DNA from: Deroplatys truncata | Lineage: Eukaryota; Arthropoda; Insecta; Mantodea; Mantidae | Direction: 5' to 3' | NCBI GenBank assembly: GCA_030765065.1 | Contig: CM060977.1 | Coordinates: 91,715,795 to 91,779,794, forward strand | Length of the DNA: 64,000 bases | Shown: positions 5,477-63,460 of the stretch, piece after piece | Layout: every line of letters begins with the position of its first letter | Position numbering within the stretch: the stretch's first letter is position 1 | Position numbers and translations under genes: made by a program | Notes under the pieces: generated by a model | What the model was told of the DNA's origin: nothing | The model's database searches: none | The model's input: the letters and a program-made list of their open reading frames with translations, nothing else

Positions 5477-6341
5477 TTTCTCTATCACGTACGTAGTAGG
5501 TAGAGAAGGTATTGCATTCCACCAAAAAATTAAATATCGATATTTCACAGAAAATATATGTTTCGGGGCTTCCTGAATCCCCCCAAAAGCATTTCTAGAA
5601 AGATGTCCTTGTGTGTTTGTAAATAACATAACTCAAAAACGAAAAGCTGTATAAATACCTAAAACTTGATATTCAGATACAGGATCTTCCAAAGATACGA
5701 CACGAAAAGTTTTAAGAAAATCTCACACCCTTACTTCCCTTTATATGGAATATTTTACATTTGTTATGTTCTAAAAAAATGGCTGTATCGATTTTGATTA
5801 AAATATCATATTATGTACATATATAAGACATGACATGACAAATAAAACGTATATCTTGAATTTTCTGGAAATAGTCTGTGAAATCCTCTTTATTCGGAAG
5901 GAACTTTGTATAATCTTGTACGTTAAGCCGTAAACGAAAACGTATTAAGACAAAAAAGAATGTAGATCTCTTTAAAACACACAATTTATTTCAAATAAGT
6001 TTCTTGTGGCATAAGTAATTTCTGAGATATCTGTTACTAATGGTTCGAATTGTTCAAAATTTGGCTATTCTCTTGAATTCCTGTCAACATTCAGATGTTT
6101 CTCGCGATGTCATGGATACAGTATGGGATTTTACGGCCAGCATATAGCGTTCAGTTCTTAGATATTTGACTGCCGCTATTCTTTTTGTATCTATAACGAA
6201 ATATGTAATGTAGCTATTTCTGCAAAGGTTTATTTGGATTAAAATATAGTAGATAGAAAAACAAGCTTTAATAAGAATAGTTTGTATACCCACTAATAAA
6301 CGATGAGGGTTGAGAAAGTCATGTGAATGTATAACATCAGA
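5477..6341 (+). mobile_element. HINE-like repeat, full-length copy
   Basis: The copy opens with a degenerate terminal motif (ATTTTCTCTATCACG), has the 'attgcattccacc' and 'tcaaaaacgaaaag' blocks, and closes with 'ttgagaaagtcatgtgaatgt' and 'aacatcaga' before a T-rich flank. It contains no coding capacity; an open frame on the minus strand near 6.1-6.3 kb is incidental and recurs in other copies. Confidence 0.85.
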
Positions 6342-7425
6342 TCTTTTTGCAATTTGTTTTACTGTAATATACTCAAATAATATAGCTTGTATTATTTCAT
6401 TTTACTTACAAATATAATTAGAATACTAATAAATGTTCATGGTTACTTCTACTGTTGTGACGGGCTACTAAAGAAACGCCACATACATGAAAATGAAGAA
6501 AGTCTGTTGTACTTTTACTTGTGTATTTAAAATTAAAGGGTAAAAAGAAGTTGAGTAGCTCTACGGGGATTTGAACTTATAACTCATGGAACATTAAGCC
6601 AACTCTCTATCACGAAGCTAAGGGTGCTGTTGTAAGTGTGACATTGTAACTGGCTTTAGTCATTGGGAACCATAAATCAATAAAGTGTGTTTTGGTTACA
6701 AATATTCAGCTTTGAAAAAGTGAAACATATCTGTTCGAAATCTCGTATACGAATTATTTTCTCAGAAGACTTTTGCGATTATAATTGTGTTCCCCAGTAT
6801 AACTACTACAAGAATATACGCAGTCTTGTGAACAAAGTCTGGCTGTCTCTGTCTCTCACTGAAGAGCCCGATTTGGCCAGTACAGTATATGGCGTAAAAT
6901 ATGATATCAAGATCATTTGCTATTCAGAAACTCACAATGCATGGAGAAAGAAATGCAAAATTATTCATCTATGCACGCTATACAGGCACAAATTTTAGTA
7001 TCCAATATAGGTCTCTTAGATGCCGGCCAGTTTTAAATTGACTGAGTGTGTGGATTGTTGGACCAGTGTGATTTACAGGATCAATAAACATATACCTACT
7101 TTGCTTTAAATGAAATAAATGCTCGTTCATTCCATATACGTTCATGACATCAAAGTTTGTGGTTCACTCTAGCTTCTGCAATGCTTGATAATGCTTTGTG
7201 TAGGGAAGGTTGCATATAGAGCATGAGCTGCTGCATATACAACGAAATGCACCCAGATAATGGAGTAGGTGTTAGCCATTGAGTTAGGAATCTTCTCACT
7301 AGAGGGACAGTTGGCTCTACGAGAGCGTTTGGAGTCAAGCCGTCTAGGTGTAAGTCATGACAAGGGGACATGTTGATATAGGTGTCAGATGTAAAACAGC
7401 GTTCCCTGTTTAATTTGCTCCCTAC
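6342..7425. other. Non-coding stretch
   Basis: Apart from the tRNA-like block at 6550-6625 I recognise nothing. An open frame at 6687-6998 (plus strand) has no family features I know. Confidence 0.35.
6550..6625 (-). repeat. tRNA-like block, possible SINE head
   Basis: Read on the minus strand, the block has an A-box-like stretch (TAGCTTCGTGATAGAG) and a B-box-like AAGTTCAAATCCCC at tRNA-like spacing. Acceptor-stem pairing is poor and there is no clear SINE body, so it is not called as a tRNA gene. Confidence 0.3.
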
Positions 7426-8197
7426 CACTTATGTTTTGATGACCCCTGAATAAAACATGTTAGAAAAAGGTCTATGTGTGTGACTGTGATCAGCATAACT
7501 GAAAAACATAAAGTCGGATAAATACCAAACTTGGTATTTAAGTTCAATACCTTCCAAAATATTACACGAAGATTTCCAGGAAAATCCCCCATCCCAAACT
7601 ACACTTTACATGGTAAATTGTTTGAAATTTTTTATTGTCTAAAAAGTGACCAAAGCTTTTGATTAAAATACGGTATATTAAAGGCATTTTACATGGCAAA
7701 TGAAATGTGTATCTTGAATTTCTGGAAATTGCCTATGAAGTCCTTTTTATTTGGAAGGAATTTTATATAATCTTGTGCAACTGGCAAACTTTAAGCGATA
7801 GACGATAACGTACGGCACAAAAGTGGAAATTTCTTTAAAACACACAATTTATTTTAAATAATTTTTTTACGCATCAGCTATTTCTGAGATATACTTATTA
7901 ATGGGTCTAACTGTTCAACACTGAGACATTTTTTTTGAAGTTCTGTCTATTTTCAGTTGTTTCCCGCAATGCTTGCTGATTTAAAATTCCAGCAGTATGG
8001 AATTTGAAGTCCAGCGTTAAACATTTGACATTTGTTCTCTTTGTATCCATAACGAAATGTGTAATATAGCTATTTGTCCAAAGGTTTATTTGGATTAAAA
8101 TGAAAGAGATCAAAAAATAAGCTTTCGTAAGAAAATTTGCATTTCCGCTAATAAGACATAGAGGGTAGAGAAAGTCATGTGAATGTAACACATCAGA
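7426..8197 (+). mobile_element. HINE-like repeat, 5'-truncated copy
   Basis: It starts inside the family at 'atgttttgatgacccctg', continues through the GT-rich and 'aagtcggataaataccaaac' blocks, and ends with 'gggtagagaaagtcatgtg' plus the 3' stem-loop 'aatgtaacacatcaga'. The next partial copy follows directly. Confidence 0.85.
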
Positions 8198-8420
8198 CAT
8201 TTACAAAAAGATCCCTGTGTGTGTATGAATATGACAACCCCAAAACGAAAAGTCTGTTAAATAACAAATGTGGTATTTGAGCTCAACATGTATCCAAGAA
8301 TGCCAAACAAAGATCACCAATGAAGTCCTCCCATTATAAACTAACTTTACATGGAAACAATTAATATTTACATGAAAAATAAAATATATATCTTATATTT
8401 ACTGTGAATAGCCTCTCGGA
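8198..8420 (+). mobile_element. HINE-like repeat, internal fragment
   Basis: It begins 'catttacaaaaagatccctg', the family's position about 90 bases from the 5' end, directly after the 3' end of the preceding copy and in the same orientation. It stops after 'gtgaatagcctctcgg'. Either a tandem insertion or a rearranged piece. Confidence 0.7.
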
Positions 8421-9097
8421 GGCCACTAAGGGTTGCTGATAATTCTGTCGATTACAACATTGCTTAACATTAATTTTCATATCAAGATAATAGTCAGCAT
8501 CCCTTGTAAACAGCATCTGTCAGTTACTCTCACGTCTCACATACTTTTTCCATCACACGCATCATGTTTACCCTTTGTGAACAAACCGAACTATGGTAAA
8601 CAAAACAGAAATTACAATGAGTAGGAGTACGACAGATTATTTATAACAAATGTTGCAAGAAATATTTTTTTACATGCACAGTGACAAAAGATAAACTCGC
8701 TTCTTAACTTGATGAGCCCCTCTTGCGCTAAAGTTAAAGCTTATAACTATCACCCCATAACATCCCTGTTTAATGATAAATGGAAGGTTCAGGTTCGGCA
8801 ATCAATGAAATAACTCAGATATGCTCCATTAATAATAGATTTTAATAAGTAACCTCGTAGAAACATGAACAGTATACAACTCAAAAGATTACAATGGTGA
8901 GCTGAATATGCACAACAAACACGACGTAGACATCTTTGTATATGTTGAAACAAAGAACATATAAATACACGAGAATCATACTGATATATTCTGAGACACT
9001 TTTAAAAACTCCATTACATGCATCCCAAAAGCATACATCAAAATAAGAAATCGTAGCGGAGGAAGTGCTGCACGTGAGTGCCACGTGTTACCTCACA
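8421..9097. other. AT-rich non-coding stretch
   Basis: No recognisable gene or repeat; open frames are short. Confidence 0.4.
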
Positions 9098-9099
9098 TA

Positions 9100-11801: not shown

Positions 11802-11838
<37 letters not shown>

Positions 11839-12720
11839 CAGCTAATAGAAGAGGCAGGAATAGATTCAATTGCTGGAAGTGTCTCAGTCTCAGCACAGGG
11901 AATTGGAAAACTGTAGACACAGATATAGAGAGAGCAGCTAATATAACAGACAGCAATAGATTCAATTTTTGGAAGTGTCAGTCCCAGCACAGGGAATTGG
12001 AAAACAACAGGCACAGCGATAGAGAGAGAGCCGCTAATATAACAGACAGCAATAGATTCAATTCTTGGAAGTGTCAGTCTCAACACAGGAAATTGGAAAA
12101 CAGCAGACACAGCAATAGAGAGACGACAGCTAATAGAACAGACAGCAATAGATACAATTCTTAGAAACGCCAGTCCCGGCACAGGGAATTGGAAAGCTGC
12201 AGACACAGTGAGACGAAGAGAGAGAGAGGTCAGCTAATAGAAGTGAGAGCAATCGATTCAATTCTTGGAAGTGTCAGCCCCAGTAGAAGTAATTGGAAAA
12301 GGACAGACATAGCGATAGGGAGGGAGAGAAAGAGAGAGAGGGCAGGTAATAGAAGAGAGAACAATGGATTCAAATTCTTACAAGTGTGAACAGGGAAGAG
12401 AATGAGAGAGGGGGAAAGCTAATAGAACAGACAGCAATAGATTCAGTGCTCAGAAGTGTCACAGGGAATTAGACACAACGAGAGAGGAAGAGAGAGGGGT
12501 CAGGTAGAAGACAGCGATAGATTCAAGCTTGGAAGTTTCAGCCCCGGCACAGGGGATTGGAAAACGACAAACACAGCGAGAGAGAGAGAGAGAGAGAGAG
12601 AGGACAGCTAATACAAGGAGACAACGATAGCATCAATGCTTGGAAGGTCAGTCCCGGCACAGGGAGCTGGCTGAAATGGGGACATGTTAGAGAGAGAAGC
12701 CGGCGGATAAGAAAGAGACG
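11766..12720. repeat. Minisatellite, about 96-bp unit, roughly nine copies, with GA runs
   Basis: Successive units share 'cacagggaattggaaaac', 'gacacagcgatagagag', 'agctaatagaacagacagc' and 'aatagattcaattcttgg'. The 'gctaat' landmark recurs at about 11841, 11937, 12033, 12129, 12233, 12345, 12418, 12501 and 12607, giving spacings of 96, 96, 96, 104, 112, 73, 83 and 106. The first three periods are exactly 96; later units vary mainly through GA-run length. A minus-strand open frame at 11721-12206 is a by-product of the unit being 32 codons long. Confidence 0.9.
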
Positions 12721-14649: not shown

Positions 14650-15495
14650 AACTCTACTCTAGTATGTAGAGAAGGTATTTCATTCCACACAAACATTTTA
14701 TACTTAGATATCACCGGAAATACATGTTTTGAGGCTCCTATATCAAAATAGAGCATTTTTATAAAACGATCCGTGTGTGTGTGTGTATGTGTGTGTCTGT
14801 GAACAGTATAACTAAAAAACGATAAGACGGATAAATACGAAACTTGGTATTTAGGTTCAATATCTTCAATGATGAGACACGAAGATTTTCAACCAAATCT
14901 CTCACCCCAGCTATCCTTTACATGGAACATTTTTTGAAAACTTTGATTTTTTAAAAAAATGGCCCTAATGATTTTGATTAAAATATCATTTATTAAAGAT
15001 ATTTACATGAAAAATAAAGCGTATATCTTGAAATTTCTGTGACTAGTCTGTGAAGTCCTCTTTATTCGGAAAGTATTATGAATAATCCTGTATGATTGGT
15101 AAACGTTAAACGATAGACGAAAACGTATTACACAGAAGTGTAGATCTCTTTAAAACACACAACAACTTATTTAAAATAAGTTTTCGTGGTAAAAGCCGTT
15201 ACTAAGATATCCGATATTAAAGGTTCGAATTGCTCAATGCTTGTCATTCAAGCCTCATCGATTTTCAGTTGTTTCTCGTGATGTCATGGAAACAGTATAG
15301 AATTTTAAGAGGCCAGCGTATAGCGTCCAGTTCTTAAACATCTGACTATCGCTGTTCTATTTGTATCTGTAACGAAATGTATAATGTAGTTATTTCTCAA
15401 AGGTTTATTTGGATTCAAATGTAGTAGATGCTTTAGTAAGAATAGCTTGAATACCCATAATAAAGATAGAGAGTAGAGAAAATAATGTGAAACTT
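14650..15495 (+). mobile_element. HINE-like repeat, near full-length copy
   Basis: It has degenerate ends but all internal blocks: 'aggtatttcattccacac', a GT run at about 14773-14792, 'gataaatacgaaacttgg', 'acttcgtt'-type middle blocks and a 3' end reading 'gagagtagagaaaat'. It belongs to the subfamily with 'ggttcgaattgctcaatgc' in the 3' half. Confidence 0.85.
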
Positions 15496-15722: not shown

Positions 15723-16218
15723 TTTGATGTTTTACATTCACACGACGTTCTCTAGCCTTTATCTTTTATTAGCGGCTACACACTATTCATACCAAATCTT
15801 ATTTTACTATCTACTTCGTTTTTATGGAGATAAATCTTTGCAGAAATAGCTACATTACACATTTCGCTCATACATAGAAAGGGAACAGCGATAGTCAAAT
15901 GTTTAAGAACTGGACGCTACATTCTGGTCTTAAAATTCCATACTGTTTCCATGACATCGCGAGAAATAACTCAATGTTGAAACTACTTAAAGACAATGGC
16001 CAAGAAATGAACAAGTCGAGCTTTTAATAACGGATATCTCAGAAATGGCTTATGTCACGCAAAAATTTACGAGAAATAAATTGTGTGTTTTAAAGAGATA
16101 CACATTTTTTGTGTAGTACGTTTTGGTCTATCTTTTAAGGTTTACCATATAGACTTCCTTCCGAATGAAGGACTTCAGAAGCTATTCCCAGAAAATTCAA
16201 GATGTACACTTTATTTTT

Positions 16219-16249
<31 letters not shown>

Positions 16250-17465
16250 TTAATATATGGTATATTAAACCAAATCGTTATAGCCATTTTTCAGAAAATA
16301 AAGAACTTCGGAAAGGATCCCATGCAAAGGGTAGTATGTGGTGGGAAGTTTTCTTGAAAATTTTCGTTTTGTATCTTTGAAAGGTAAGGTAAAGCACACT
16401 TAGATACCAAGTTTGGTATTTATACAACTTTTCGTTTTTACTTTTTCTACTACATATACTAAGTAGGGGAAGTATTGCATTCCACCCAAAAATACGATAC
16501 CGAGATTTCACCGAAAATACATGTTTTGAGATACGCTGAATCCAAATATAGCATTTTTGGGAACGTGTCCGTGTCTGTGTGTATATCTATCTATGAACAG
16601 CATAACTCAAAAACGAAAGTCGGATAAATACCAAAGTTGACATTTGAATTTAAATCTTCCAAGGATGCGACACGAATATTTTCAAGAAAATCATCCTACC
16701 CGTACTACTTTTACATGGAACCTTTTTCGAAAATTTTGAGTTTCTTAAAAATGGCTAACGATTTTGATTAAAGTATCAGATGTTTAAGATATTTTTATGA
16801 CAAATGAAATGTATATCCTGAATTTTCTGAGAATGTCCCCAAAAGTCATCTTCATTCAGAATGGCTTCCGCATAACTGGTAAACCGTGGGAGAGAAAAAA
16901 AATTACTATACAAAAAACGTATATCTCGTTAAAACACACAATTTATGTCATATAATTTTTTGTGGAGTGAACAATTTCCGAGATATTACTTGTTATTTGT
17001 TTGAATTTTCCAATACTTATACTTTTTCTCAAATGGAAATTGGTTATTGGTTTTTTAATGTCCTGGGCATGCAAAGAGAATGGAATGCTCCACAGAGCAA
17101 CCAGTTCTTAAAAGATTTGACTGTCGCTTAAAGCCTACCATATTCATCTTGCACCTACAAGAAAATTAGTAATTGGATAGCTTCTGCAAATGTTTATCTC
17201 AATTAACATGAAGTAGATGGAGAATAAGCGTTGGTAAAAATAGTTTGTATAAGAGTAGAGAAAGTCATGTGACTGCAACACATCAGTTTTTCTTTTAGTT
17301 ATGCTGTTCACACACACACACACACACACACAAACGTACACGTGGATATTTTTCTAAAATGGGGTTTTTTTTTGATTCAGGAGTTCTCAAAGCTTTAATT
17401 CTGGTGAAATCTTAGTATCGAATTTTTAGGTGGAATTTCTCTATCTACTACGTGGTAAAGAAAGT
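15723..17465 (-). mobile_element. HINE-like repeat, full copy split by a nested copy
   Basis: The minus-strand copy runs from its 3' end at 15723 to a T run ending at 16439 ('acttttcgttttt'), is interrupted by the copy at 16440-17286, and resumes at about 17292 with 'ttttagttatgctgttcac' exactly where the family consensus continues, ending near 17465 (AAAGT on the plus strand). A TA microsatellite at about 16223-16250 and a CA run at about 17311-17331 lie at the family's two variable simple-repeat positions. Confidence 0.9.
16440..17286 (+). mobile_element. HINE-like repeat, nested full-length copy
   Basis: Starts ACTTTTTCTACTACATA right after a T run and ends 'gtagagaaagtcatgtgac' plus 'tgcaacacatcag' right before a T run. 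It sits inside a copy of the opposite orientation, so both ends are fixed by the interrupted host copy. The length is 847 bases, no target duplication is seen, and the subterminal 11-mer is present at both ends. It belongs to the subfamily with 'tttgaattttccaatactt'. Confidence 0.92.
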
Positions 17466-22105: not shown

Positions 22106-22824
22106 TCTGATGTGGTACATTCACATGACTTTCTCTACCGTGTTCAAATGTTTAAGAAGTGCAGTGGCCTTAAAATTCCATACTGTTTCCAAGACATCGC
22201 TAGAAACAACTGAATGTTGAAAGGACTTTAAAAGAATGACAAGATTTGAACAATTCAAACCATTAATAATGGATATCTCAGAAATGGCTTATGCAATAAA
22301 AACTTATAAATAAATTGTATATTTTAAAGAGATCTATATTTTTATTTGGTACGTTTTCGTCTGTCGTTTAACGTTTACTGTTATACAAGATTATACAAAA
22401 TTCCTTCCGAATGAAGAGGACTTCACAGGCTACTCCCAGAAAATTCAAGATAAATATTTTAATTGCTATGCAGTTGTATTATACTTTAATATATAGTATT
22501 TTAATCAAAATAGTTAGCCATCGTTTAGAAAATAGAAATTTTCAAAAAATGTTCTATGTAAAGTGTAGTTGAGGGTAGGGGATTTTCTTAAAAATCGTCG
22601 TGTCGCATCCTTGGAAGATACTAAACTCAAATACGAGGTTTGATATTTAGACGACTTTTATTTTTGAGTTATGCTGTTCACACGCACGCACGCGTGCGCG
22701 CGGAATTTTTTCTAATAATGCTTTCTTTGTGTTCAGGTGGCCTCAATTTCCGGTAAAATCTCGATATCAAATTTTTGGGTGGAATGCGATACTTCCCCTA
22801 CTTGCTATGCGTAGTAGAGAAGGT
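22106..22824 (-). mobile_element. HINE-like repeat with internal deletion near its 3' end
   Basis: Read on the plus strand it begins TCTGATGTGGTACATTCACA after an A run and ends TAGTAGAGAAGGT. About 130 bases of the 3' part are missing at about 22140 (junction 'ctaccgtgttcaaatg'). The simple repeat near 22680-22700 is a mixed CACG/CG run. All other family blocks are in order. Confidence 0.88.
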
Positions 22825-23745: not shown

Positions 23746-24571
23746 CACCTTAAATTCACATGACCTTCTCTAACCTCTTATCATTTATAAATGGGTATAA
23801 AGTCTATTCTTACGAAAGCTTATTTCTCCTTCCACTTCCTTTCAATCGAGATAAACCTTTGCATGAATAGCTACATTACACATTTCGTTATAGATACAAA
23901 GGGAACACGATAGTCAAATGTTTAACAACTGGACGCTATATACTGGCCTTAAAATTCAATACTGTTTCCATGACAACGCGAGAAACAACTGAATGTCGAT
24001 GGACTTTAAAAGAATGATAAAAATTGAAGAATTCAAACCATTAATAACGGATATCTTGGAAGTAGCTAATGCCAAAAATTATTATTTGAAATAAATTGTG
24101 TTTTAAAAGAGATCTACATCTATCGCTAACCTTTACCAGTTACAAAGGATTATACAAAGTTCCTTCCGAGGATTTCAAAGGCTAATCTCAGAAAATTAAA
24201 GATATACATTTTATTTGTCATGTAAACATATTTAATGGCATTTTGATAAAATATTTGAGCAATTGTTCATAAAATAAAGAATTTCGAAAAAATTTCTATG
24301 TAAAGGGTAGATGAGAGTAGCGGAATTTTCTTGAAAATCTTTGTGTGACATCTTTGGAATATACTGAACTTATACCAAGTTTGACACTTATCCGACTTTT
24401 AATGTTTTAGTTATGCCGTTCACAGACACAAAGGTCTGCGACCCTTTTCTAAAAATGGTTCATTTGGATTCAGTGGGCCACAAAACATGTATTTCCGGTG
24501 AAATCACGCGATAGAATATTTGGGTGGATTGCAATACCTTCTCTACCTATTATGTACGTTGTAGAGAAAGT
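23746..24571 (-). mobile_element. HINE-like repeat, near full-length copy
   Basis: Plus-strand reading begins 'ttaaattcacatgacc' (3' end) and finishes 'acgttgtagagaaagt' followed by an A run. Internal blocks are all in order, including 'gcatgaatagctacattaca' and 'ggatatcttggaagtagc'. Confidence 0.87.
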
Positions 24572-25029: not shown

Positions 25030-26751
25030 GTAGGCTGAAGCGATAGTCAGGTATTTTAAAAGCTGGTCGTTATGTGATGCCTTTGAAATTCCGTTTTCCT
25101 TTTGTATGACAGCGAGAGAAAACGAATACCGACTTACTGCTTGAGAAAAGTGTAAATAAGTATTTGAAAACTTAACCAATAACAAATATCTCGGAAATGG
25201 TTACGTCACAAAACTTTTGTTTCAGATACATATCCTTTAATGAGATCAACATTTTTATGTAGTGAGATTTCGTTTAATTTTTACGGTTTACCAATTATAT
25301 TGAGTGTGCCAGAGCACCCGTGTCAGTTGCTTTTCTTTAAAACTATATGATACTTATTGTTCACACAAACATTTGATAACCATAACCTATGTAAAGAATC
25401 GATTGGTGGTATTTCCATTTTCGGAACAAACCGGAAGTAGGGGTACTCTGATCTACTTTGAAATTTTAAATGAGAACGTGGGTTGTTTAAGGTATCATTG
25501 GATGGTGCTTTTAAAATGAAACAATTTTTACAAAAACTTTCTGTGTATCGGCATGCATTTTGCTTGTCATGTAAATACCTTAAACATATCGTATTTTTAT
25601 GAAAACTATTAGAGCCATTTTTAAGAGAATAAAACGTTACAATAATTTTTCTGTATATAGATTAGTTTGTAATGGGGATATTTTCTTGAAAATCTTCGTT
25701 GTATCCCTAGGGTACGCTGAACTTAAATTTAACCGCCTTTTCGTTTTTGAGCTTGCTGGTCACACGCGTGCGGATCTTTTCCCAAGCTTTACTTTCTCTA
25801 CCACGTACACCGTACGTACAGAAGGTATTACATTCCTTCCGAAAATTCATTACCGAGATTTCACCGAAAATATATGTTTTAAGGGATCTTAAAATCAAAA
25901 AAATGTATTTACAGAAAAAGAGCCGCACACGTGGTGTGTGTGTCTGCGAACAGAATAACTAAAAAACGAAAAGTCGGATAAATACTAAACCATTAGGTTC
26001 AGTAGTTTCCAAAGATGCGACACCAAGATTTTAAAGAAAATCCCCCAATCCTAAACTACCCTTTACATGAAACATTTTTCAAAACGCTTAATTTACTAAA
26101 AAGGTTCTACATTTGGATTAAAATATCATACATTAAAGATATTTAAATGACAAATAAAATATATATCTTGAATTTTCTGGAAACAGCCTATGAAGCCCTC
26201 TTCATTCGATGGAATCTTGTATAATTTTGTACATCTGGTAAACGTTAAGCGATAGACGAAAACGCGCTACATAAGAAATGCAGACCTCTTTAAAGAACCC
26301 AATTTATTTCAAATAGCCTTTTTTGGGGCATCAGCCACTTTCGAGCTATCCGTTATCAATGGTTCGAATTCTTCAAAACAATCATTCTTTTGAAGTCCTG
26401 TCATTTCTCGCATGTCATGGAAACAGTAACAGATTTTGAGACCAGTGTATAGTGTCCAGTTCTTAAACATTTTACTATCGCTGTTCTCTTTATATCTATA
26501 ACGAAATGTGTAATGTAGCTATTTCTGCAAAGGTTTATCTGAATTAGAATGAAGTAAATAGTAAAATAAGCTTTCATAAGAATAGTTTGTATACACACTA
26601 ATACACGATAGAGGGTAGAGAAAATCATGTGAATGTAACGCATAAGATTTTTTAATCACGGAGCCTCAAAGCGTATATTTATGGTAAAACCATATTGAAT
26701 TTTTGAGTGAAATGCCATACTTCCTCTACCTACTATGGCAATAGAGAAAGT
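25030..26751 (-). mobile_element. HINE-like repeat, divergent copy split by a nested copy
   Basis: The first part (about 25030-25790) belongs to a divergent subfamily ('gaagcgatagtcaggtatttt', 'tactgcttgagaaaag'). It is interrupted in the T run 'aagcttt' by the copy at 25791-26647. The remainder resumes at about 26648 with 'ttttaatcacggagcctc' (the family's 'ggattcaggggcctc' position) and ends 'atagagaaagt' at 26751. Confidence 0.82.
25791..26647 (+). mobile_element. HINE-like repeat, nested full-length copy
   Basis: Starts ACTTTCTCTACCACGTA directly after CTTT and ends 'gtaacgcataaga' before TTTTTT, 857 bases, inserted into an opposite-orientation copy. The 3' subterminal 11-mer is present with one change (gtagagaaaat). 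Confidence 0.9.
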
Positions 26752-29672: not shown

Positions 29673-30492
29673 ACTTTCTCTTCTACGTACTTACAATGAG
29701 CAGAGGATGTACCGTATTCCAACCAAAAAATAAATCTAGATATTTAACCGGAAATGCATGTTTTGAGACACCCTCAATAAAAAGAAGTTTTAGAAAAAGG
29801 TACGCGCGTGAGCGCGAGTGTGTGTGTGCGTCTGTGAACAACTTAACTCAAAAACTTAAAGTGGATGAATACCTAACTTGGTTCATTACCTTTTAAAGAT
29901 GCGACATGAAGATTTTCCACAAAATCTGCCATTCCAGACTACCCCTTAGACGGAACATTTTTAGAAAATTTTTATTTTCTCACAAATGGTTCTATTTCGA
30001 TTAACATATGATATATTTAAGATGTTTCCATGGCAAATGAAATGTATATAATGAGTTTTCTGGGAATTACCCAAAAGTCCTCTTCGTTCTGAATGACTAT
30101 CATAACTGGTAAACCTAATTTTACTAAAAAAAAAATGTAGATCTCGTAAAAACACACAATTTGTATTCACATCCATTTTTTGTCGAGTGAACCATTTCCG
30201 AGATATTCCTTATTTATTTTAAATCTCCAATACTTATACTTTTTCTCAAATGGGAATTCGTTATTCGTTTTTTGTGTTCTGGACACACAAAGAGAATGGA
30301 TTGCTTCACATAGCAATTAGCTTTTAAAAGATTTGACTGTCGCTAAAAGCCTACCATAGTCCCTTTGCACCTAGAAGGAAATTAGCAATAAGAGTTTCTG
30401 CAAATGTTTATCTCGATTAACATGAAGTAGGTGGAGAATAAGTGTTTGTAAAAATAGTTTGTACAGAATAGAGAAAGAGTGCAACACATCAG
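29673..30492 (+). mobile_element. HINE-like repeat, full-length copy
   Basis: Starts ACTTTCTCTTCTACGTA after five T's and ends 'gtgcaacacatcag' before six T's, 820 bases. The right flank is a remnant of an opposite-orientation copy, making this a probable fourth nested insertion. Confidence 0.88.
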
Positions 30493-33045: not shown

Positions 33046-33059
33046 TACACAAGGATACA

Positions 33060-33172
33060 ATAGGTTAAAACGACAGGCAGGTTTTTGAAAAGTGGGTTGC
33101 TATCTGATGGCTGAAATTACATGTTGCTTGCATGACCATTAGAAAAAAAGAATAACGATTTACCGCTGCTTG
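33060..33172 (-). mobile_element. HINE-like repeat, short fragment
   Basis: Matches the 'cgatagtcaggtatttt ... aataacgacttaccgcttg' region of the divergent subfamily seen at 25.0-25.15 and 56.36-56.6 kb. Ends are gone. Confidence 0.55.
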
Positions 33173-35935: not shown

Positions 35936-36215
35936 AGGTTTCGTGGCGTTTGACGGTGCCGGACAGATGGCGCGGATGCATGATCAAAGGAAAGAATACT
36001 CCCCGCGGACACCAAAGGGCTGCTTGGTTGGTGGGTCGTTCAACTTCCACTCTCGGCAATTCCAGCAGGGGGACAGGTCTTCGGGCTTGGAAATGCTAGG
36101 GCCTTTCGCGCGTCTCTGGGGCCTGTAGTCTCCTACGGTTCCTTCGCTTCATCCCTTCCGGGGTAGCCGCGATAGATCTATACAGGACGCAGCGCGTGAA
36201 ACACCTATACCTATA
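35936..36215 (+). mobile_element. SINE body fragment
   Basis: 'gacggtgccggacagatggc', 'ccccgcggacaccaaagggc' and 'tctcctacggttccttcg' match the body at 63.58-63.83 kb and, in reverse, 26.97-27.4 and 51.0-51.4 kb. The head is missing, replaced by the opposite-orientation SINE at 35745-35920. Confidence 0.72.
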
Positions 36216-36221
36216 CCGCTT

Positions 36222-36730
36222 GAAAAAGTATTTCAAAATTCAAGCAAATAACAAGGAATATTTGACATAAATTGGGTGCTTTAATGACATCTACTTTTTT
36301 GCACAGTAAGATTTCTGATATCGCTTACGGTTTAATAATTATACAAAAATCATTCAAAATGAAGAGGTTTCTAAAGGCTATTCGCAGAAAATCCAAGATA
36401 TACATTTTATTTTTTGTGCAAATATCTTAAACATATGCTATTGAAACAAAATTATTAGAGCGATTTTTACGAAATTAAAAACCTTTCCATATTTTCAGGG
36501 TAGTTTGTGCTGGGGGGAATTTGTTCAAAATCTTTGTGTCGCTTCCTTCGAAGAACTTTGAAGTTGTATGTAAGTTTGGATTTTAACCGAAGTTTGTTTT
36601 TGAGAGACATACCTGGAGCTACTTATAAAAGTGTTTTTTTCGGTTCAAGACGTAGAACGTGTATTTCAAGTGAAATCTCGGCATCGAATAGTTGGATGAA
36701 ATGCAATACTTTCTCTACTTAGTATAGGTA
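36222..36730 (-). mobile_element. HINE-like repeat, 3'-truncated copy
   Basis: Plus-strand reading runs from 'attcaagcaaataacaagg' through 'attttattttttgtgcaaat' to 'gaaatgcaatactttctcta'. The 3' half of the element is absent. Confidence 0.82.
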
Positions 36731-47469: not shown

Positions 47470-50400
47470 AACTTTTGTTCCAAATTGGCTCATTAGGTTG
47501 CATAAGAAGCTTTTGCAGCAAATCACCTCAGACTTGTGCTATATGTTATAAATAACAAAAGGAGCCGACCATAGAGAGGGCACAATCCCGAGCCACATAG
47601 AGATGAATGAGCATCACTGTGTGTTGAAGACAAGAGAAACCGAGTTATAACAAGAATAATTAGCTGCAGAAGTGGGGAAGGAACTCGGTTTATGAATCGT
47701 AAAATACATATTCTTGCTTATCAAGAAAGTAGGTAGAAACTTTGCAACTCAGTTTCGAGTGTATGTTAAGTGGCATAGTTTGTTTTCATGCAAGAAAAGC
47801 ACATCTACAAATTAAGACTAAGACTGCAAATGGTTTTGAAACTGAATGAAATACAAAGGTGGAAATTCTACAAATAAATCGAATCCGATTGAAACCGATC
47901 GAAAAAAAAATTCTTCTGTTTACTTTCTGTTAAACGAGATAAACTTTCATTACACATTTCGTTGTACAATTATGGGTTATACAATGGAGGGTGGTATCAG
48001 AGCTGTCCATTGAACGAGTTTGGTTATTAATTTGTACCATTCGTGCCTTCGAGCACAAATGAGCTCGTGTACAGGGCGAGTTCACTATACCAGAACTCGA
48101 ACGGTGTCTCGCTCTCAGTCCATTCCGTTTGGTATAGCGAACGAGGATGTCTGTCCTTTCCTGTTCAAACGCCCAGTGTAATAACAAGCAAGGAGAATGC
48201 TAAGTATGCTTCACTGGCTTTGTTGCTGCAGCCTGATACTCCGGAGTCGAGTGGTACAAGTGAAAATGTTTTCTTAAAATTAAATGAAGGACTTCTTCAG
48301 TTGGAACATAAAACTGGAGGATATATGGAATCACTTCGGGATTATTGTCGAGAAAACGATATAATAATAAGAAGTGTTGAAGTGTTCTTAAATTTACTTT
48401 TAAGAAACATTATGTTTAAGAAAATTTTATTTTATTTTTATACTATTTCAGATTTATGCTACATATTCATAACATAAAGTTGCTCTCAAGTGTCGTGTAG
48501 CATTATCCACCATTATCCATGTGTTGCGAAAGGAATTTAAGCGTGCTGGAAATACGATCAAAACCTAACTGATATAAATAGAAATTATTGTAATATTCAA
48601 AAGATAATTTCCTTTCCTGACATTTATTCATAGAATTACAAAATATTTTGTTTGTAATTATTTTAGAAATACAATTTTATAGAACAAAGTCCACTAGTGT
48701 TCAAATGTAACACAGTACGGCGTAATTCTTCGTTTTGCCGGAGCAAAAAAGCCAAGCCCTGTTCTTGCATTCACAGTTCTTTGTATTAGACTTGCAGTGA
48801 TATTTTTAACATTTAATAACTCTGTTTTAAACTTTACAAATTTTAACATCCTTAAACATCTTTCCCCAGGTGATAAACTATTCCTTTTAACAAGTAACAA
48901 TACATATTGGTACCATAATTATCGACGGGAATATATAAATAATTAAATAAAAATAGTAAGATTTCCGTGTATTAAATCAGTGCACGAGTACAATGTAACC
49001 AGTTTGAGTTGAAATGTTTGTTCGAAGGTAATGAAAGAAGGTAAGAAGATGAAGGTAATTAGAAATTGATATTAACCAAAGTCATTAGCGACAGCCTAAG
49101 TAGTGCACGTATTAGCTTAAAGATTCTGAGAACTCAAATGGGTTATAAGTTCAGTACGCTTACGCAGTCACGTAGGCCGAAATTCTGAAAAAGAGAAGAG
49201 AAAGGTGTTTCCAAATAGTTAAGAGATGTACATGTGGAGGGATTTAAGTATTGGCCCGGGCATGGATAATAGCGTTGGTGGGGGAATAATATATATGCGG
49301 AGCTAAAAGTAATAAAGGCGTGCAATTCAAATCAGAGATTCACTCCACTCTGGCACCGCTATTGGTACGGATCGACGTTCGTGTAAACAGTTGTGCACAT
49401 ACTAGTTTCTCTCTCTGGTACAGACAGCGGTACTTAGATGTGTAAGTTTAAGCGCTTAGTGATGTGTTTATGAGGTCAAGATTTCGCGGCTGTCGTGAGG
49501 GATCTTTCCGACCAAAATTTTAGCTACTCACGGCAGATTACGCTACTAGTTTCTTTTATTGCGGAAACAGTTATTTCCAACCGTAGCTTTGATACTGCAG
49601 AAGTTAGCAGGTATAATAATTCAGTTGCTACAATTGCAAGTGCTAGGATTAAGAGTCAGTCTTTTGCTTCATCTCGAACGATCGACAACTCACTCCAATA
49701 ACTCAAATATTACTTCACATAAATGTCTCAGTGAAATTAAACTGGTGTTGTCCTTCACAATACATCCACGCATACCCTGGGGGGAACATATTGATAGCTC
49801 AACCACTGGAGCAGCCGGCAGCAGAATCAACAGTAGATATTGGAAACGAGAAAAGGTGGCAACTACATGCCTGTACTAAATTGTTGCACCATCATCGCGG
49901 CCTCACACTTTCTGCTTCATGTATTATAAAAGTCTGTCTTTGCCTGAATGATAACCATGTTGGACACGAATTTTAAAAGGTCCAGAACATGACGCACCTT
50001 AAATTTAATTTTACACCCCACGTGCTACCTGTCGGGTAATCTCTCGGGATCTCCCCATCTCTCTGCCGGTGCCTGGAGGAGTGAATAGTTCCAACTTTGG
50101 CCGTCGCAGTGCTGCCGCCCCACTGCTGGCGAATCGCTCTGCCAATAACATGATCCAGCGCTCACCACTTCGCTATCTTGATCATGCCTAGTAACTGGAG
50201 AACTACAAAATGGTGCACTGTATCATCTTGTTTTCTCCGTTGAAGACGACCTTGAAGAAGCTGGCTCAATCGTCAGTTTTCGGTTAGAGATTTTTGTCAC
50301 TACCGAGTTACTTTACGTTTTCTTTAACTTGTATCTCGTTAAAAGAAAGCGCAATTTTAAGTACAATCATTGTGTACATCATTGTAGTAAAACAATAACT

Positions 50401-52084: not shown

Positions 52085-52930
52085 TCTGATGTGTTCCATT
52101 TGCATGACTTTCTGTACTCTCTATCGTTTATTAGATATTAACTATTCTTCAGAAAGCTTATTTTTCGATCTAATTCATTTGAATCGAGATAAACCTTTGC
52201 AGAAATAGCTACAATATACACTTTGTTATAGATACAAAGAGAACAGCGATACGCAAATGTTTAAGAACTGGACGCTATATGCTGGCCTTAAAATTTCATA
52301 CTGTTTCCATGACATCGGGAGAAACAACTGAATGTTGACAGGACTAAGTGACTGACCAAGTAATGAACAATTCGACCCATTAATAAAATATATCTCAAAA
52401 ACAACTGTCACAGAAAACTTATTTGAAATAAATTGTGTCTTTTAAAGACGTCTATTTTTATGGAGTAATTTTCTTCTGTCGCTTAACATTTACAAGTTAT
52501 ACAAGATTATACAAAATTCCTTCCGAATGAAGAGGACTTCATAGGCTACTCACAGAAAATTCAAGATTAATATTTTATTTGTCATGTAAATATCTTTAAT
52601 ATTTGATATATTAATTAAAATCATTAGCACCAACCTTTTAGAACATAAAAATATCAAAAAATGCTCCATGGTAAGGGCAGTTGTTGAGGGATTTTCTTCA
52701 AAATCTTCATGTCGCACCTTTGGAAGATACTCAACTTAAGCATCAATTTGGTATTTATCAGACTTTTCGTTTTTGAGTTATATTGCTGCTAGACACACTG
52801 ACACGGGTCTTTTTATAAAAATGCATTTTTTAAATCAGAGGGCCTCAAAAAATGTGTTTCAGGTGAAATATTGGTATCAAATTTTTGTGTGGAATGCAAT
52901 ACCTTTTGTACCTGATATGTACGTGATAAT
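52085..52930 (-). mobile_element. HINE-like repeat, near full-length copy
   Basis: Begins TCTGATGTGTTCCATTTGCA on the plus strand (3' end) and runs in order to 'gtggaatgcaatacc' and a decayed 5' terminus near 52930. Confidence 0.87.
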
Positions 52931-53751: not shown

Positions 53752-55054
53752 TCTGATGTGATACATTCATACACTTCATATACCCTCTATCGTTTACTAG
53801 TAGGTATACAAGCTGCTCTTAGTAAAGCTTATTACTTTCTCTACTACGTACAGTAAGTAGGGGAAGTATTGCATTCCAACCAAAAATTCGATATCGAGAT
53901 TTCACCGGAAATACATGTTTTGAGGCTCCCGAATCCAGAAAAAAAGCATTTTTAGAAAAAGGTCCCTGTGTGTCTGTGTGTCTGAGTCTGTGCACAGCAT
54001 AACTCAAAACAAAAAGTCGGATAAATACCAAACTTGGTATTTTCGTTCAGTATCTTTTAAAGATGTGACACGAACATTTTCAAGAAAATTCTCCCATTCC
54101 AGACTACCCTTTACATGGAAACTTTTTGAAAATTTTGATTTTCTCAAAAATGGCTCCAACGATTTTGATTAAATTATCATAGTTTATGATACTTTCATGG
54201 CAAATGAAATGTGTATCTTGAATTTTCTGGGAATGTCTCCAGAAGTCGTCTTCATTGTGAATGAAGTTTGCATAACTGGTAAACCGTAAGAGAGAGACAA
54301 ATTTGTACTACAAAAAGTTGTAGATCTCGTTAAAACACACAATCATTTCCGAGATATTGCTTGTTATTTGTTTGAATTTTTATCAAATGGGAATTCGTTA
54401 TTCGGTTTTTTATGTCCTGGACATTCACACATGCTCCACATAGCAACCAGCTTTTAAAACATTTGACTATCGTTTAAAGCCTACTTTATTTTCATACTCC
54501 TCTTGCACCTACAAAAAATTAGCAATAAGATAGTTTCTGCAAATGTTTATCGCGATTAACATGAAATAGATGGGGAATAAGCGTTTGTAAAAATAGTTTG
54601 TACAAGAGTAGGCAAAGTCATGCGAGTCTAACACATCAGATTTTTTTCTATCTAGTTCATTTGAATCCAAGCAAACCTTTGCAGAATTAGCTACAATGCA
54701 TATTTCGTTGTAGATACAAAGAGAACAGCGATAGTAAAATGTTAAAAGCACTGGTCGGTATAAGCTGGCCTTAAAATTCGTACTGTTTCCATGACATCGT
54801 TAGAGACAACTGAATCTTGACAGGACTTGTAAAGATGGACGAAGTAATGAAGAACTCGAACTATTAATAAGAAATGGGTTATGCCCAAAAACGTATTTGA
54901 AATATATTGTGTCTTTTAAAGACGTATACATTTTTTATGCATTACGTTTTCGTCTATCGCTTAACATTTATCAGGATTATACAAAATTCCTTCCGAATGA
55001 AGAGGACTTCAAAGGTTATTCCCAGAAAATCTGAGATGTACGATTATCTTTAAT

Positions 55055-55085
<31 letters not shown>

Positions 55086-55426
55086 GTGTTTTAATCAAAA
55101 TCGTTAGAACCATTTTTTAGAAAATAAAAAATGTCGAAAAAGTGTTCCATGTCAAGGGTAGTTTGCGGTGTGGGATTTTCTTGAAAATCTTTAAGTCGCA
55201 TCTTTGGAAGGTTTGGTATTTAATAGACTTTTCCTTTTTTAGTTATGCTGTTCAGTCACACACACAAATACAAACACACGCGCACACACAGACAGATATT
55301 TTTCTAAAAGTGCGTTGTTTTTTGGATTCAGAGGGCCTCAAAACATGTATTTCCGGCGAAAACTCGGTATCAAATTTTAGGCGGTACACAGTACTTCGCC
55401 TACTTACTATTCGTAGTTGAAAAAGT
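53752..55426 (-). mobile_element. HINE-like repeat, full copy split by a nested copy
   Basis: The first 82 bases (TCTGATGTGATACATTCATA to 'agtaaagcttatt') are the 3' end. The copy is interrupted at 53834-54640 and resumes with 'ctatctagttcatttg', precisely the next family position, continuing to 'gttgaaaaagt' at 55426. A CA/TA microsatellite lies at about 55056-55085 and a CA-rich run at about 55255-55290. Confidence 0.92.
53834..54640 (+). mobile_element. HINE-like repeat, nested full-length copy
   Basis: Starts ACTTTCTCTACTACGTA after TTATT and ends 'taacacatcaga' before TTTTTTT, 807 bases, inside the minus copy 53752-55426. It belongs to a different subfamily from its host, so it is an insertion and not an inverted duplication. 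Confidence 0.93.
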
Positions 55427-55435
55427 AAAAAGGCC

Positions 55436-56361: not shown

Positions 56362-56605
56362 TCTGACGTGTTGCATTCACATGAATTCCTTTACTCACTC
56401 TTCTACAAACTATTCTTATTATTCCAGCTACTTCTTTATCATCCACATAAACTTTCAATTCACATTTACACATTTGGTGTAGGATATAATAGGTAAAGCG
56501 ATAGTCAAAGTTTTAAAAAGGAGTCACTATGGGATGGCTTTGTTTTCTATGTTCCTTGCGTGACCACGAGAAAAAGGAATAATGACTTACCACTTGAGCC
56601 AAATC
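56362..56605 (-). mobile_element. HINE-like repeat, 3' fragment, divergent subfamily
   Basis: Starts TCTGACGTGTTGCATTCACA and matches the 25.0-25.15 kb subfamily ('gcgatagtcaaag', 'gacttaccacttgagcc'), ending after about 240 bases where another copy begins. Confidence 0.75.
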
Positions 56606-56862
56606 ACAACCCTTTCTCTACCCTCTATCTTTTAGTCGTGACTATACAAACCATTGTTACTAAACCTTAATTTTATATCTACTACGTTTTAATCCAAATA
56701 AGCCTTTGCAGAAATAATTACTATTCACGTTTCGTTACAGATACAAAGAGAACAGCTGAACGCTGTATGCTGACCTTAAATTCCATACTCTTTCCGTGCA
56801 ATCGCGAGAAACAACTGAATGGTTGGAATTGTTCATTTCTTGGTCATTCATTAAAAGTTCTT

Positions 56863-57214: not shown

Positions 57215-57341
57215 TAGATATCTTAAATATTTGGAATTTTAATCAAAACCGTTTTTTGAGAAAATAAAAAATATATAAACTTTTTCGATGTAAAGGGTAG
57301 TTTGGTGTGTAGAAATTTTCTTTAAAATCTTGAGTTATGCT

Positions 57342-57343
57342 GC

Positions 57344-57397
<54 letters not shown>

Positions 57398-57422
57398 TCA
57401 CACACGCACGCGCGCGCGCGCA
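57342..57422. repeat. Compound microsatellite (CT)n(CA)n(CG)n in a HINE
   Basis: Runs of CT, then CA, then CACG/CG occupy the simple-repeat position of the HINE family. Plus-strand open frames across it are low complexity. Confidence 0.9.
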
Positions 57423-57530
57423 AATGGTTCTTTTGGATTCAGGGAAGCTCAAAACATTAATTTTCGTGAAGCTCGATATCGAGTGGAATGCAATACTTTA
57501 TCTACCTACTTGTTACGTGGTAGAGAAAGT

Positions 57531-58350: not shown

Positions 58351-58706
58351 TCTGATGTATTGCACTCATATGACTTTCTCTACTCCTGTACAAACTATTT
58401 TTACAAACGCTTATTCTCCATCTACTTCATGTCAGTCGAGATAAACATTTGCGGAAGAGCTGGTTGCTATGTGGAGCATTACATTCTCTTTGCATGTCCA
58501 GGACTAAAAGAAAAGAATAACGAATAATTCTCATTTGAGTATAAGTATTGATAAATTCAAACAAATAACATGGGATATCTCGGAAATGGTTCACTCGACA
58601 AAAAGCATGTATGTGACATAAAATTGCGTGCTTTATTGAAAACTGCATTTTTTGTGTAGTAAAATCTTGGGTGGAATGCCCTACTTACTATACGTAGTAG
58701 AGAAGT
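58351..58706 (-). mobile_element. HINE-like repeat, internally deleted copy
   Basis: Plus-strand start TCTGATGTATTGCACTCATA after an A run; the end 'tacgtagtagagaagt' at 58706. About 450-500 internal bases are missing (junction around 'gtgtagtaaaatcttggg'). Confidence 0.85.
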
Positions 58707-59117
58707 GTAGCGGGGTTTGGAAATGGAAAAATAAAGGTTTGTAATGGTGCGGTTCTTGGTTGTTGGATTGTTGTTGCTGCCGGCTACTCAGGTAGAGCAA
58801 TTTAGGTTCAGGAGTCTCTTACCTCAGGGAGTGTGGATGGGAGATAAATGAAGTTCACTTTCTCCTCTCAGATGGCCCGTTTATTGATGATCCAAACTGA
58901 TGTCCTCGTACGAATCTCCTTTCCACACAAGACGAGATTTTTCCTGTCACCCCTGCTACTGTTTCCGTGTTCTTACCCTTTCTTAATTACTTTGCGAAGT
59001 TGAAGTACGTTACAATACTATGCTAATGACCCTTTCGTCAGTCCCTAGCTACCCTGTTCCTCACGGTTGCCTTAAATTGGTTTTCAACACATAAATATTT
59101 ACTCGAAGGCCGCTACA
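58706..59117 (-). repeat. Probable LTR (412 bp) of an otherwise unseen retrotransposon
   Basis: Ends are TGTAGCGG (58706-58713) and CCGCTACA (59110-59117). The minus-strand orientation is suggested by AAAGAGGGAAACAG, a polypurine tract, just outside at 59118-59131, and by an AATAAA on that strand near 58878-58883. No short target duplication and no second LTR are seen, so this would be a 3' LTR with truncated internal sequence. Confidence 0.45.
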
Positions 59118-60006: not shown

Positions 60007-60868
60007 ACTTTTTCTACTACGTATAGTAAGTATGGGCAGTATTGCCATTTCAACAAAAAATTCGATACAGAGATTTCACTGGAAATGCATGTTTTGTGCG
60101 CTCTGAATTCAAATAAAGCATTTTTGGAAACGTGTCCTGTGTGTGTTTGTGTGTCTTTCTGTGAACGGTATAACTCAAAAATGAAGAGTCGCATAAATAC
60201 CAAACTGAATTTAAACCAATCAAATACCAATTTGAGTTTAAATCTTCCAAGGATGCGACACGAAGATTTTCAGGAAAATCATTCCACCCCTACTACCTTT
60301 ACATGAAACGTTACGAAAATTTTTATTTTCTCAAATATGGCACTAAGGATTTTGATTCAAATATTTGTTTAAGATATTTTCATAGCAAATGAAACATGTG
60401 TTGAATTTTCTGGGAATGCTTCCAAAAGTCCTCTTCATTCTAAATAGCTTTTGCATAACTGGTAAACCATAAGAGATAGGCAAAATTTTACTACACAAAA
60501 AATGTAGATCTCGTTGAAAAACACAATTTATGTCACACATTATTTTTGTCGAGTGAAGCATTTCCCACGTATTCCTTGTTATTTGTTTGAATTTTCCAAT
60601 AGTTATAGTTTTTCTCAAATGGGAATTCTTTATTAGTTTTTTATGTCCTGGACATACAAAGAGAATGGAATGTTCCACATAGCAACCAGCTCTTAAAACA
60701 TTTGACTATCGCTTAAATCCTACCATATTCCTCTTGCACCTACAAGAAAATTAGGAATAAGATTCTGCAACTGTTTATCTCGATTAACTTGAAGTTGATG
60801 GAGAATAAGTGTTTGTAAAAATAGTCCGTGCAAGAGTAGAGAAAGTGATGTGAGTGCAATACATCAGA
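60007..60868 (+). mobile_element. HINE-like repeat, full-length copy
   Basis: Starts ACTTTTTCTACTACGTA after TTATT and ends 'gcaatacatcaga' before TT, 862 bases, with both subterminal 11-mers (the 5' one with one change) and a GT run near 60140. Confidence 0.92.
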
Positions 60869-61794: not shown

Positions 61795-62030
61795 AATGAA
61801 GATTTTGGAATAAGGTCTTCTCTAAAAGGCTTGATTGAAATACCAAGTATGGTATTTAACCGACTTTTCGTATTAGGGTTATGGTGTACAAAGAGAGATA
61901 CGCAGACCTTTATCTAAAGAAACTTTCTGTGGGATTTAGGGAGCCTAAAACATGTATTTCCGGTAAAATATCTGTATTGGAATTTTGGATGGAATGGAAT
62001 ACTTTCTCTAGAGAATACAACAAGAGAAAG
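61795..62030 (-). mobile_element. HINE-like repeat, 5' fragment
   Basis: Blocks 'ataccaagtatggtattta', 'catgtatttccggtaaaat' and 'ggaatggaatactttctcta' in reverse family order; the terminal 11-mer is altered. Confidence 0.75.
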
Positions 62031-62393
62031 ATATGCTAGTTATCTCACTGTAAGTAAGTTGGAGCGGGATGAGTTTCAAACAAAGCAAATCGACAGAGAT
62101 TGTCACATCAAGAGTCATTCGTCCTGGTTCGTGGTGCTTGTAATGCTTGTATAGTAGCACTTAGTTAAACTGCCATTTACATGCTTGTTCAACAGTCCCG
62201 CATCGCGGTTTCAACAGCAAACGCTGGTATCGGCAAACGTCTATGGTTTACTGCCCACTTAGTTTGGGTGGGGAGGGGGACGACCTTTGTTAACCACGTC
62301 GTTAGTCACTCACTTCCAGGTAGGAAGTGCTATGTTAACAGCTTCGTCCACAGTCAGCAACTATTGTTACCACTGCATTTCATTCTCATTTTT
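62031..62393. other. Non-coding stretch
   Basis: Nothing recognised. Confidence 0.4.
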
Positions 62394-62505
62394 ACTTTCG
62401 CAACTACTTACCTATAGCAAGTAGAGGAGGTATTGCATTGCACCCAAAAATTCAATACCGAGTTTAGGTCGGAAATACACGTTTTCAGACTCTCTGAATC
62501 CAAAA
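62394..62505 (+). mobile_element. HINE-like repeat, 5' fragment
   Basis: ACTTTCGCAACTACTTACC, then 'attgcattgcacccaaaaat' and 'tctctgaatccaaaaat'; breaks off about 110 bases in and is joined to the interior of a minus copy. Confidence 0.75.
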
Positions 62506-63174
62506 ATTCTGATACGACCTTACTCTTTCCATGACATTACGAGAAACAACTGAAAATCGACTGGAATTAAAAAAAATTGCCGAGCATTGAACAATTCGAA
62601 CCATCAATAACGATATCTCGGTAATGACTTATGCCATACAAAACTTATTTAAACAAACTGTGTTTTAAAGAGATCTACATTTGTTGTGTAGTACGTTTTC
62701 GTCTATCGCTTAACGTTCCAGTTATAAACGATTTTACAAAACTCCTTCCGAATAAAGAAACCACCTGCTATTCCCAGAAAATTCAAAATATAGGTATGGT
62801 TTATTTTTCATGTAAATATATTTATTCCATGGTATTTTAATTAAAATCGTTAGAGCCATTTATGAAAAAATAAAACATTTGGAAAAATGCTCCGTTTAAA
62901 AGATAGTTTTGAGTACGGGATTTTTTTTTAAAATCTTCGTGTCGAGTCTTTTGAAGATATTGAACCTAAATACCAAGTTTGGTATACATTTATCAGACTT
63001 TTCGCGTTTGAATTATACTGTTCACAGACAGACACACAGGCCTTTTTTTTTTAAAAAAAATGCTTTATTTGTGTTTAGGGGGTCTCAAAACATGTATATC
63101 AGGGAAAATCTCGGTATAGGATTTTTGGATGTAATGCAATACTTCCCTTACTTACTATACGCAGTAGAGAAAGT
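62506..63174 (-). mobile_element. HINE-like repeat, 3'-truncated copy
   Basis: Begins inside the family at 'ttccatgacattacgaga' and ends 'acgcagtagagaaagt' at 63174. The junction with the plus fragment suggests a deletion that removed the 3' ends of both. Confidence 0.85.
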
Positions 63175-63189
63175 AAAAATATGCAATAA

Positions 63190-63297
63190 AAGCGTTTCTA
63201 CAAATGCGTATCTACATGGAGTAGATAAAAAATAAGTTGTTTTAGGAATAGTTTGTTGAAGAATACGTAGAGAAAGTCATGTAAATGTAACACATAG
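63190..63297 (+). mobile_element. HINE-like repeat, 3' end fragment
   Basis: 'gtagataaaaaataag', 'aggaatagtttgttgaaga' and 'gtagagaaagtcatgtaaat' with the 3' stem-loop. Confidence 0.7.
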
Positions 63298-63299
63298 GG

Positions 63300-63460
63300 G
63301 CATAGAATTTCAAAGCTATCACTGAGCGTTCCGCTGGTTGTTTTAGTCGTGTAAACGTGTAATGAAAGTTGATCTCATTTAGCAGGAAACAAAAGAATAA
63401 GCTTTTGTAAGAATAGTTTGTAGAAGAATGAGTAGAGAAAGTCATGTGAATGTAAAACAA
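63300..63460 (+). mobile_element. HINE-like repeat, second 3' end fragment in tandem
   Basis: Repeats the 3' end: 'agaataagcttttgtaag', 'aatagtttgtagaagaa', 'gtagagaaagtcatgtgaat'. Minus-strand translation shows the resulting doubled peptide (HMTFSTHSSTNYS / YMTFSTYSSTNYS). Confidence 0.72.

Follow-up and report, generated by a model that had tools for sequence, protein, structure and literature searches.

Helentrons and their non-autonomous relatives, the Helentron-associated interspersed elements (HINEs, such as DINE-1), are the closest described systems to a high-copy repeat family found in a 64,000-base stretch of the Deroplatys truncata genome (G000:C3:91715795-91779794; hereafter the window). 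As set out in the accessible part of PMC4067079, HINE/DINE-1 elements and Helentrons carry subterminal inverted repeats of at least 11 bp, a 3' stem-loop and an internal microsatellite, and insert between T's with no target duplication and a varying number of T's; DINE-1 has a 5' inverted repeat, and Helentrons encode Rep, PIF1 helicase and endonuclease, their signature in Rep being the motif RGS(P/L)HxH. These traits recur in the family and the partner described here, the stem-loop as a conserved sequence. The available portion of a study of FoHeli Helitrons from Fusarium oxysporum (PMC5148889) reports an ATTTT 3' end and several 5' termini with one 3' terminus, again as here, and proposes a model of self-insertion and a stop at the first 3' terminus. 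Cg_HINE of Crassostrea gigas, in the accessible text of PMC7492417, shares abundance, oligo-T insertion, lack of target duplication and links to satellite arrays with the present family, but no autonomous partner was relatable there, whereas an end-sharing partner was found here.

Overall, we conclude that the window repeat is very probably a HINE moved by a ~10-kb Helentron of the same genome, with multiple termini derived from nesting and with alternative stopping. The class is known and the family is new; the likely autonomous partner is now found, and the scale of the many-ended copies together with the stopping data is the interesting part. A preliminary description of the window had already assigned the repeat to the HINE class, and the structural evidence supports this assignment, in that the end-sharing partner encodes Rep, PIF1 helicase and endonuclease and no duplication other than of T's was seen in the empty sites compared.

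A search of the 4.29-Gb genome with Helitron_like_N returned at least 152 matches (150 of 291 candidates scored). Among the matches listed, 39 were type-B Rep loci at profile positions 8-190, and open frames of 2,108-2,543 amino acids contain 18 of these; the other listed matches spanned profile positions 1-191 and were mostly broken. Six of the 39 loci (B1-B6) were fetched, and all six proved to lie between correctly oriented 5' and 3' termini of HINE type, giving helper elements of ~10 kb with frames of ~2,300 amino acids. These are likely autonomous elements of the kind that the preliminary description had proposed to look for, carrying Rep and helicase and sharing ends of HINE type, and no partner with the same termini and a DDE transposase was found.

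The 2,324-amino-acid B4 protein comprises a Herpes_teg_N-like domain, charged repeats, DUF6570, Rep (Helitron_like_N, PF14214, 9.4e-28), PIF1 helicase (PF05970, 1.4e-28) and, C-terminally in the same frame, an endonuclease domain (Exo_endo_phos_2, PF14529, 5.1e-6, 26.8 bits; PF03372, 0.0029). Its Rep motif, RGSPHEH, fits the Helentron signature, and the protein contains GDFN and SDHKP, which we take to be motifs of an AP-type endonuclease. At L035:3130-9000, the N-terminus of a Helentron protein matched Herpes_teg_N (9e-9) and held a run of charged repeats. Frame length differs between helper copies, probably through repeat number. No separate frame of at least 250 amino acids besides the main one was present between the helper termini, RPA not having been searched for by family. 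The longest mutual blocks of five helper cores (7.0-9.1 kb) are 97-99% identical. Two young HINEs match the first 650 bp of the helper at 86% and 91% identity, and the HINE therefore looks like a deletion relative of a Helentron.

The same genome contains a broken canonical-type Helitron gene with the Rep motif RGLPHAH (L041), which would suit a reading of the family as non-autonomous canonical Helitrons (Helitron1). We regard this as very improbable, as the ends of the repeat are not TC...CTRR, insertion occurs in T-runs and not between A and T, and none of the four type-A loci fetched was framed by HINE ends within the ~18 kb read.

The 5' end of the HINE reads (T)ACTTTCTCTAC, or in fuller form (T)ACTTTCTCTACNACGTA, and is followed by its own inverted partner, which resembles TAGGTAGAGAAGGT in subfamily I and AAGTAGGGGAAGT in subfamily II. 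The order at the 3' end is GTAGAGAAAGT, C, ATGTG, a 7-base loop, CACAT, CAG and mostly then A and T's, with GTAGAGAAAGTCATGTGAATGTAACACATCAGA followed by T's as the end sequence. Identical subterminal inverted repeats of at least 11 bp (ACTTTCTCTAC / GTAGAGAAAGT) are present in the young copies and in several window copies. The arrangement reported previously, an 11-base motif at the 5' end with its inverse about 22 bases from the 3' end, is as described, save that several window copies have mutated ends; the inverse lies ~21-26 bases inside the 3' end, compared with 38-60 in the mite in the accessible part of PMC4067079. The stem-loop noted in the preliminary description, ATGTG-7-CACAT, is conserved in sequence, but the 37-nt end folds no better than shuffles. 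Folding of the 5' ends is stronger than that of shuffles (z -2.4; z -4.3 when window copies were combined in a typed blend).

Within the window, ACTTTCTCTAC at no more than one mismatch occurred 31 times over both strands, against a mean of 1.58 and a maximum of 5 in 100 shuffles. Copies were mapped with a profile made from 16 strand-checked copies (881 profile positions), which recovered 38 HINE pieces covering 14,752 of the 64,000 bases (23.05%); 9 pieces have both ends, 16 a 5' end and 18 a 3' end. No profile match was obtained in 10 Markov shuffles or in the reversed window, and two weak pieces are marginal (33055-33149, E 4.1e-5; 47910-47966, E 3e-4). The high-copy HINE-like family is thus confirmed, and the earlier figure of about 25 copies and fragments is a fair one, since a single nested or deleted copy is represented by several of the 38 pieces. 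At least two subfamilies (I and II) are represented in the window. Five young copies measure 785, 838, 902, 924 and 948 bp, and young copies contain an internal GT/CT tract; genome-wide, the 32-nt HINE 3' end has 3,463 exact copies. Rfam at gathering scores gave no match in the window. The copies, placed by the profile and, where stated, by further comparison, are as follows.

5475..6341, plus strand: HINE of subfamily I with both ends (profile positions 3-881 of 881; ends read)
7430..8196, plus strand: HINE with truncated 5' end and intact 3' terminus (ends read)
14652..15493, plus strand: nearly complete HINE of subfamily I
15725..17465, minus strand: older HINE interrupted by the 16440-17287 copy (empty-site comparison noisy, ~75% identity)
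16440..17287, plus strand: HINE of subfamily II, nested antisense in the older copy (empty-site and subfamily comparison)
22107..22824, minus strand: HINE with an internal deletion
23748..24571, minus strand: HINE with both ends
25791..26645, plus strand: HINE of subfamily I with both ends
29673..30492, plus strand: divergent HINE with both ends
36191..36726, minus strand: HINE fragment with the 5' motif
52086..52928, minus strand: HINE with both ends
53753..55425, minus strand: older HINE interrupted by the 53834-54640 copy (other window copies as empty sites)
53834..54640, plus strand: HINE nested antisense (TT-insert-TTTTTTT; the two clearest empty copies read TTTTT)
56363..56822, minus strand: two successive decayed 3' units
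57378..57530, minus strand: fragment with HINE 5' end
58352..58668, minus strand: 3' part of a HINE with a deletion
60007..60867, plus strand: HINE of subfamily II with both ends (subfamily comparison)
61820..62014, minus strand: HINE fragment
62395..62506, plus strand: fragment with HINE 5' end
62518..63173, minus strand: 5' part of a HINE
63177..63458, plus strand: two successive 3' end units

A whole-element palindrome, with the HINE as one long inverted repeat, was suggested by minus-strand matches of the first profile and was rejected. Three training copies (L003, L005 and L008) had been entered in the wrong strand, so that the minus-strand "shadow" matches were artefacts, and the 5' half scored no better than chance, 29.0, against the reverse complement of the 3' half (shuffle mean 26.2, maximum 47.5) in a pairwise test whose majority sequence still included the rows of these three copies. 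A tandem array with a ~96-bp unit, adjoining AG repeats, occupies window positions 11826-12387.

Paralogous empty sites place insertion within T-runs, with a gain of a few T's (mostly ~3-6) and no other duplication. For the HINE at L037:978-1926, which lies inside one helper copy, five such sites were available; an empty run of eight T's (seven in one) corresponds to T6-element-T7, with a few substitutions and no duplication. When five window copies served as empty sites for the 53834-54640 insertion, two showed a clear TTTTT, one showed four T's and two were too changed to be read. The two T's on the left of this copy are preceded by A, and a duplication longer than TT is therefore excluded there. 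Four helper cores compared with the unfilled HINE T-run also agree with T-run insertion, apart from two bases that B1 lacks at its 3' junction. The preliminary description had proposed insertion between T's without target duplication and had named a duplication at HINE ends as evidence to the contrary; the paralogous sites bear the proposal out, no duplication beyond T's appeared in those compared, and the gained T's are a refinement. We infer that these T's are the element's own 3' terminus (...CAGATTTT), in line with the varying T number and the ATTTT ends in the accessible parts of PMC4067079 and PMC5148889, respectively.

These sites also bear on the possibility that the family is a miniature inverted-repeat transposable element (MITE) of a DDE transposon, the inverted motifs being terminal inverted repeats. 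Such a reading could draw on the inverted 11-base motifs near both ends and on a DDE_3 open frame within the window, yet it is scarcely credible: neither a target-site duplication beyond T's in the sites compared nor terminal inverted repeats at both ends were found, the 3' motif being internal and followed by the hairpin sequence, and the partner with such ends encodes a Rep-helicase. The DDE_3 frame itself (PF13358, 1.6e-10; 474 amino acids; window 1232-2656, minus strand) is not framed by profile matches.

The HINE is laid out as a 5' unit (~640 bp), a T-run and a 3' unit (~220 bp), and the helpers lie within this T-run in the pattern 5' unit, core, 3' unit. In each of the six fetched helpers, the upstream side abuts the T-run end of a HINE 5' unit, so that at least two 5' termini are present, and four of the six have extra 3' termini. 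Two 5' and two 3' termini were read in B1 and B6, at least three of each in B3, at least two of each in B5, and two 5' termini with one 3' terminus in B2 and B4. In the accessible part of PMC4067079, Helentrons and HINEs are not presented in this way, the helper copies read here carrying several termini. FoHeli, in the available portion of PMC5148889, differs in that its 5' duplications typically span <200 bp and it yielded no endonuclease, as opposed to whole 640-bp 5' and 220-bp 3' units, an endonuclease domain and thousands of junctions here.

Genome-wide, exact patterns matched 33,891 unfilled HINE T-run junctions, 17,601 junctions between 5' units, 8,263 between 3' units and 6,848 head-to-tail 3'-5' junctions; all reversed-pattern controls gave 0. 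On C1 between 9.0 and 23.26 Mb, chains with extra ends and no head-to-tail junction comprised 26 5'-rich, 12 3'-rich and 4 balanced cases, counted from exact matches among the junctions listed, with 4 of the 26 being arms of inverted pairs (one pair fetched); this tally is suggestive only. Inverted 5'-junction pairs on C1 had raised the idea of a DDE element with terminal inverted repeats built from HINE ends, which was rejected, since in the pair fetched (L052, L049 and L053; G000:C1:22025700-22035700) the HINE composites lie within the arms of a near-identical inverted repeat, each arm exceeding 2.9 kb with outer ends beyond the stretch read. Two more such inverted junction sets were present on C1 among the matches listed. 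The same contig carries a HINE-bearing tandem array at G000:C1:20305-122563, near the start of this large contig, with a junction every ~3.4 kb and at least 31 copies, and, at G000:C1:19824422-19831865, four head-to-tail 3'-5' junctions at intervals of exactly 2,481 bp.

The 5' junction common to B2-B6, in which GCGTTATTCATTTT is joined directly to ACTTTC, has 72 exact occurrences and was followed as a founder junction. The helper 3' end occurs 51 times in the genome, with an exact 3' unit next to it in 10 cases, and 17 of the 51 have the founder junction 9.6-11 kb upstream. Among these 17 helpers, the first 3' terminus is the end point in 9 and an outer one in 7 (six with an exact outer 3' unit, and L059 with a mutated one), and L058, adjoining a helper-type version of the internal T-run, is ambiguous. 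Five of the first-terminus copies (B2, B4, L054, L056 and L060) adjoin sequence without a notable HINE or helper match, three (L057, L061 and, by a short match, L062) lie inside 5' units of other HINEs, and L055 lies inside the non-coding part of another helper. That a single founder produced copies whose 3' termini vary from site to site is consistent with transposition beginning at the outer 5' end and frequently, though not invariably, halting at the 3' terminus reached first. FoHeli is unlike this in the accessible part of PMC5148889, as here a single founder lineage ends at both first and outer 3' termini.

The several termini might instead stem from unequal recombination or segmental tandem duplication. 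Tandem arrays do exist (the ~3.4-kb and 2,481-bp units above, and a ~641-bp spacing in L031), and the longer 5' unit (~640 versus 220 bp) would recombine more often. We nevertheless consider this origin unlikely, given that the junctions fall at element ends in the T-run, that some loci are balanced (B1 and B6 at 2:2, B3 at 3:3 or more), and that founder-junction copies without an outer 3' unit have different neighbouring sequences directly after the 3' terminus and its T's. Rather more plausible, though still doubtful, is that the helper insertions reflect many independent events at a preferred internal target and not one amplified composite. At least two junction types are known (T4 with GCG in B2-B6, T6 in B1), 5' ends also adjoin a second T-run within the 5' unit, at 1,168 exact junctions, and four of the nine first-terminus copies lie in other HINE or helper DNA. 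On the other side stand the one exact founder junction shared by 72 copies and, among the matches listed, the finding that all but 18 of ~100 junctions between 5' units have exactly five T's.

Several observations weigh against a helper-driven HINE family with nested, alternatively used termini. Over its last 60 bp, the core's own 3' end shows 0.69 identity with the outer HINE 3' unit and 0.63 with A4, compared with 0.97 between the outer unit and A4; at the 3' side the helper matches the HINE in the outer unit alone, and the 80% rule applied over that length in the accessible part of PMC4067079 would place core and HINE in different subfamilies. The endonuclease match (26.8 bits) falls just under the Pfam cut-off of 27.4, and a sequence comparison of that part with the PDB gave no match. 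The 3' hairpin showed no excess stability over shuffles (z -0.6 and -0.7), core B1 is two bases short at its 3' junction, and two further empty-site comparisons (A4, w16440) were noisy. The 5' flanks were read for six core copies, with the outermost 5' end of B3 and B5 outside the stretch. As exact matches, the junction counts miss mutated copies, and some are inflated by tandem arrays and by copies in a long inverted repeat; that 5' junctions outnumber 3' ones by ~2:1 could also be the work of unequal recombination among 5' units, which are longer. Finally, the founder junction is absent upstream of 34 of the 51 core 3' ends.

Taken together, the data are best accommodated by a Helentron with the same 5' terminus as the HINE and a related 3' terminus, which would supply the Rep-PIF1 helicase-endonuclease. 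Judging from the protein, the ends and the empty sites, rolling-circle replication would carry the HINE into T-runs with no duplication of the target. The T-run inside the HINE is itself such a site: elements insert into one another there, which yields the several 5' and 3' termini read in the loci examined. The structures suggest that transposition begins with the outermost 5' terminus and that in about half of the founder-lineage copies it halted at the first 3' terminus encountered, in the others at an outer one. An additional HINE 5' unit is present in every helper copy read, so HINE ends may by now be what mostly carries the helper along. We lean somewhat toward the fuller account in which an autonomous Helentron became the passenger of its own non-autonomous relative and the composite was amplified, its copies being a natural record of termination, with a start at the outermost 5' end and a stop at the first 3' end in 9 of 17 cases (7 outer).

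In the literature on Helentrons, HINEs, DINE-1, multiple ends, self-insertion, partner elements and stick insects, with subscription journals mostly outside its coverage, no many-ended HINEs on this scale were recognized. Shared ends here connect a very abundant HINE family with a likely autonomous helper, whereas in the oyster no such connection was possible according to the accessible part of PMC7492417. From the many-ended copies come quantitative data on polarity and stopping in Helentron transposition, a subject on which the available portion of PMC5148889 offered the earlier Fusarium model. The open frames in near-identical helpers suggest a recently mobile, testable system.

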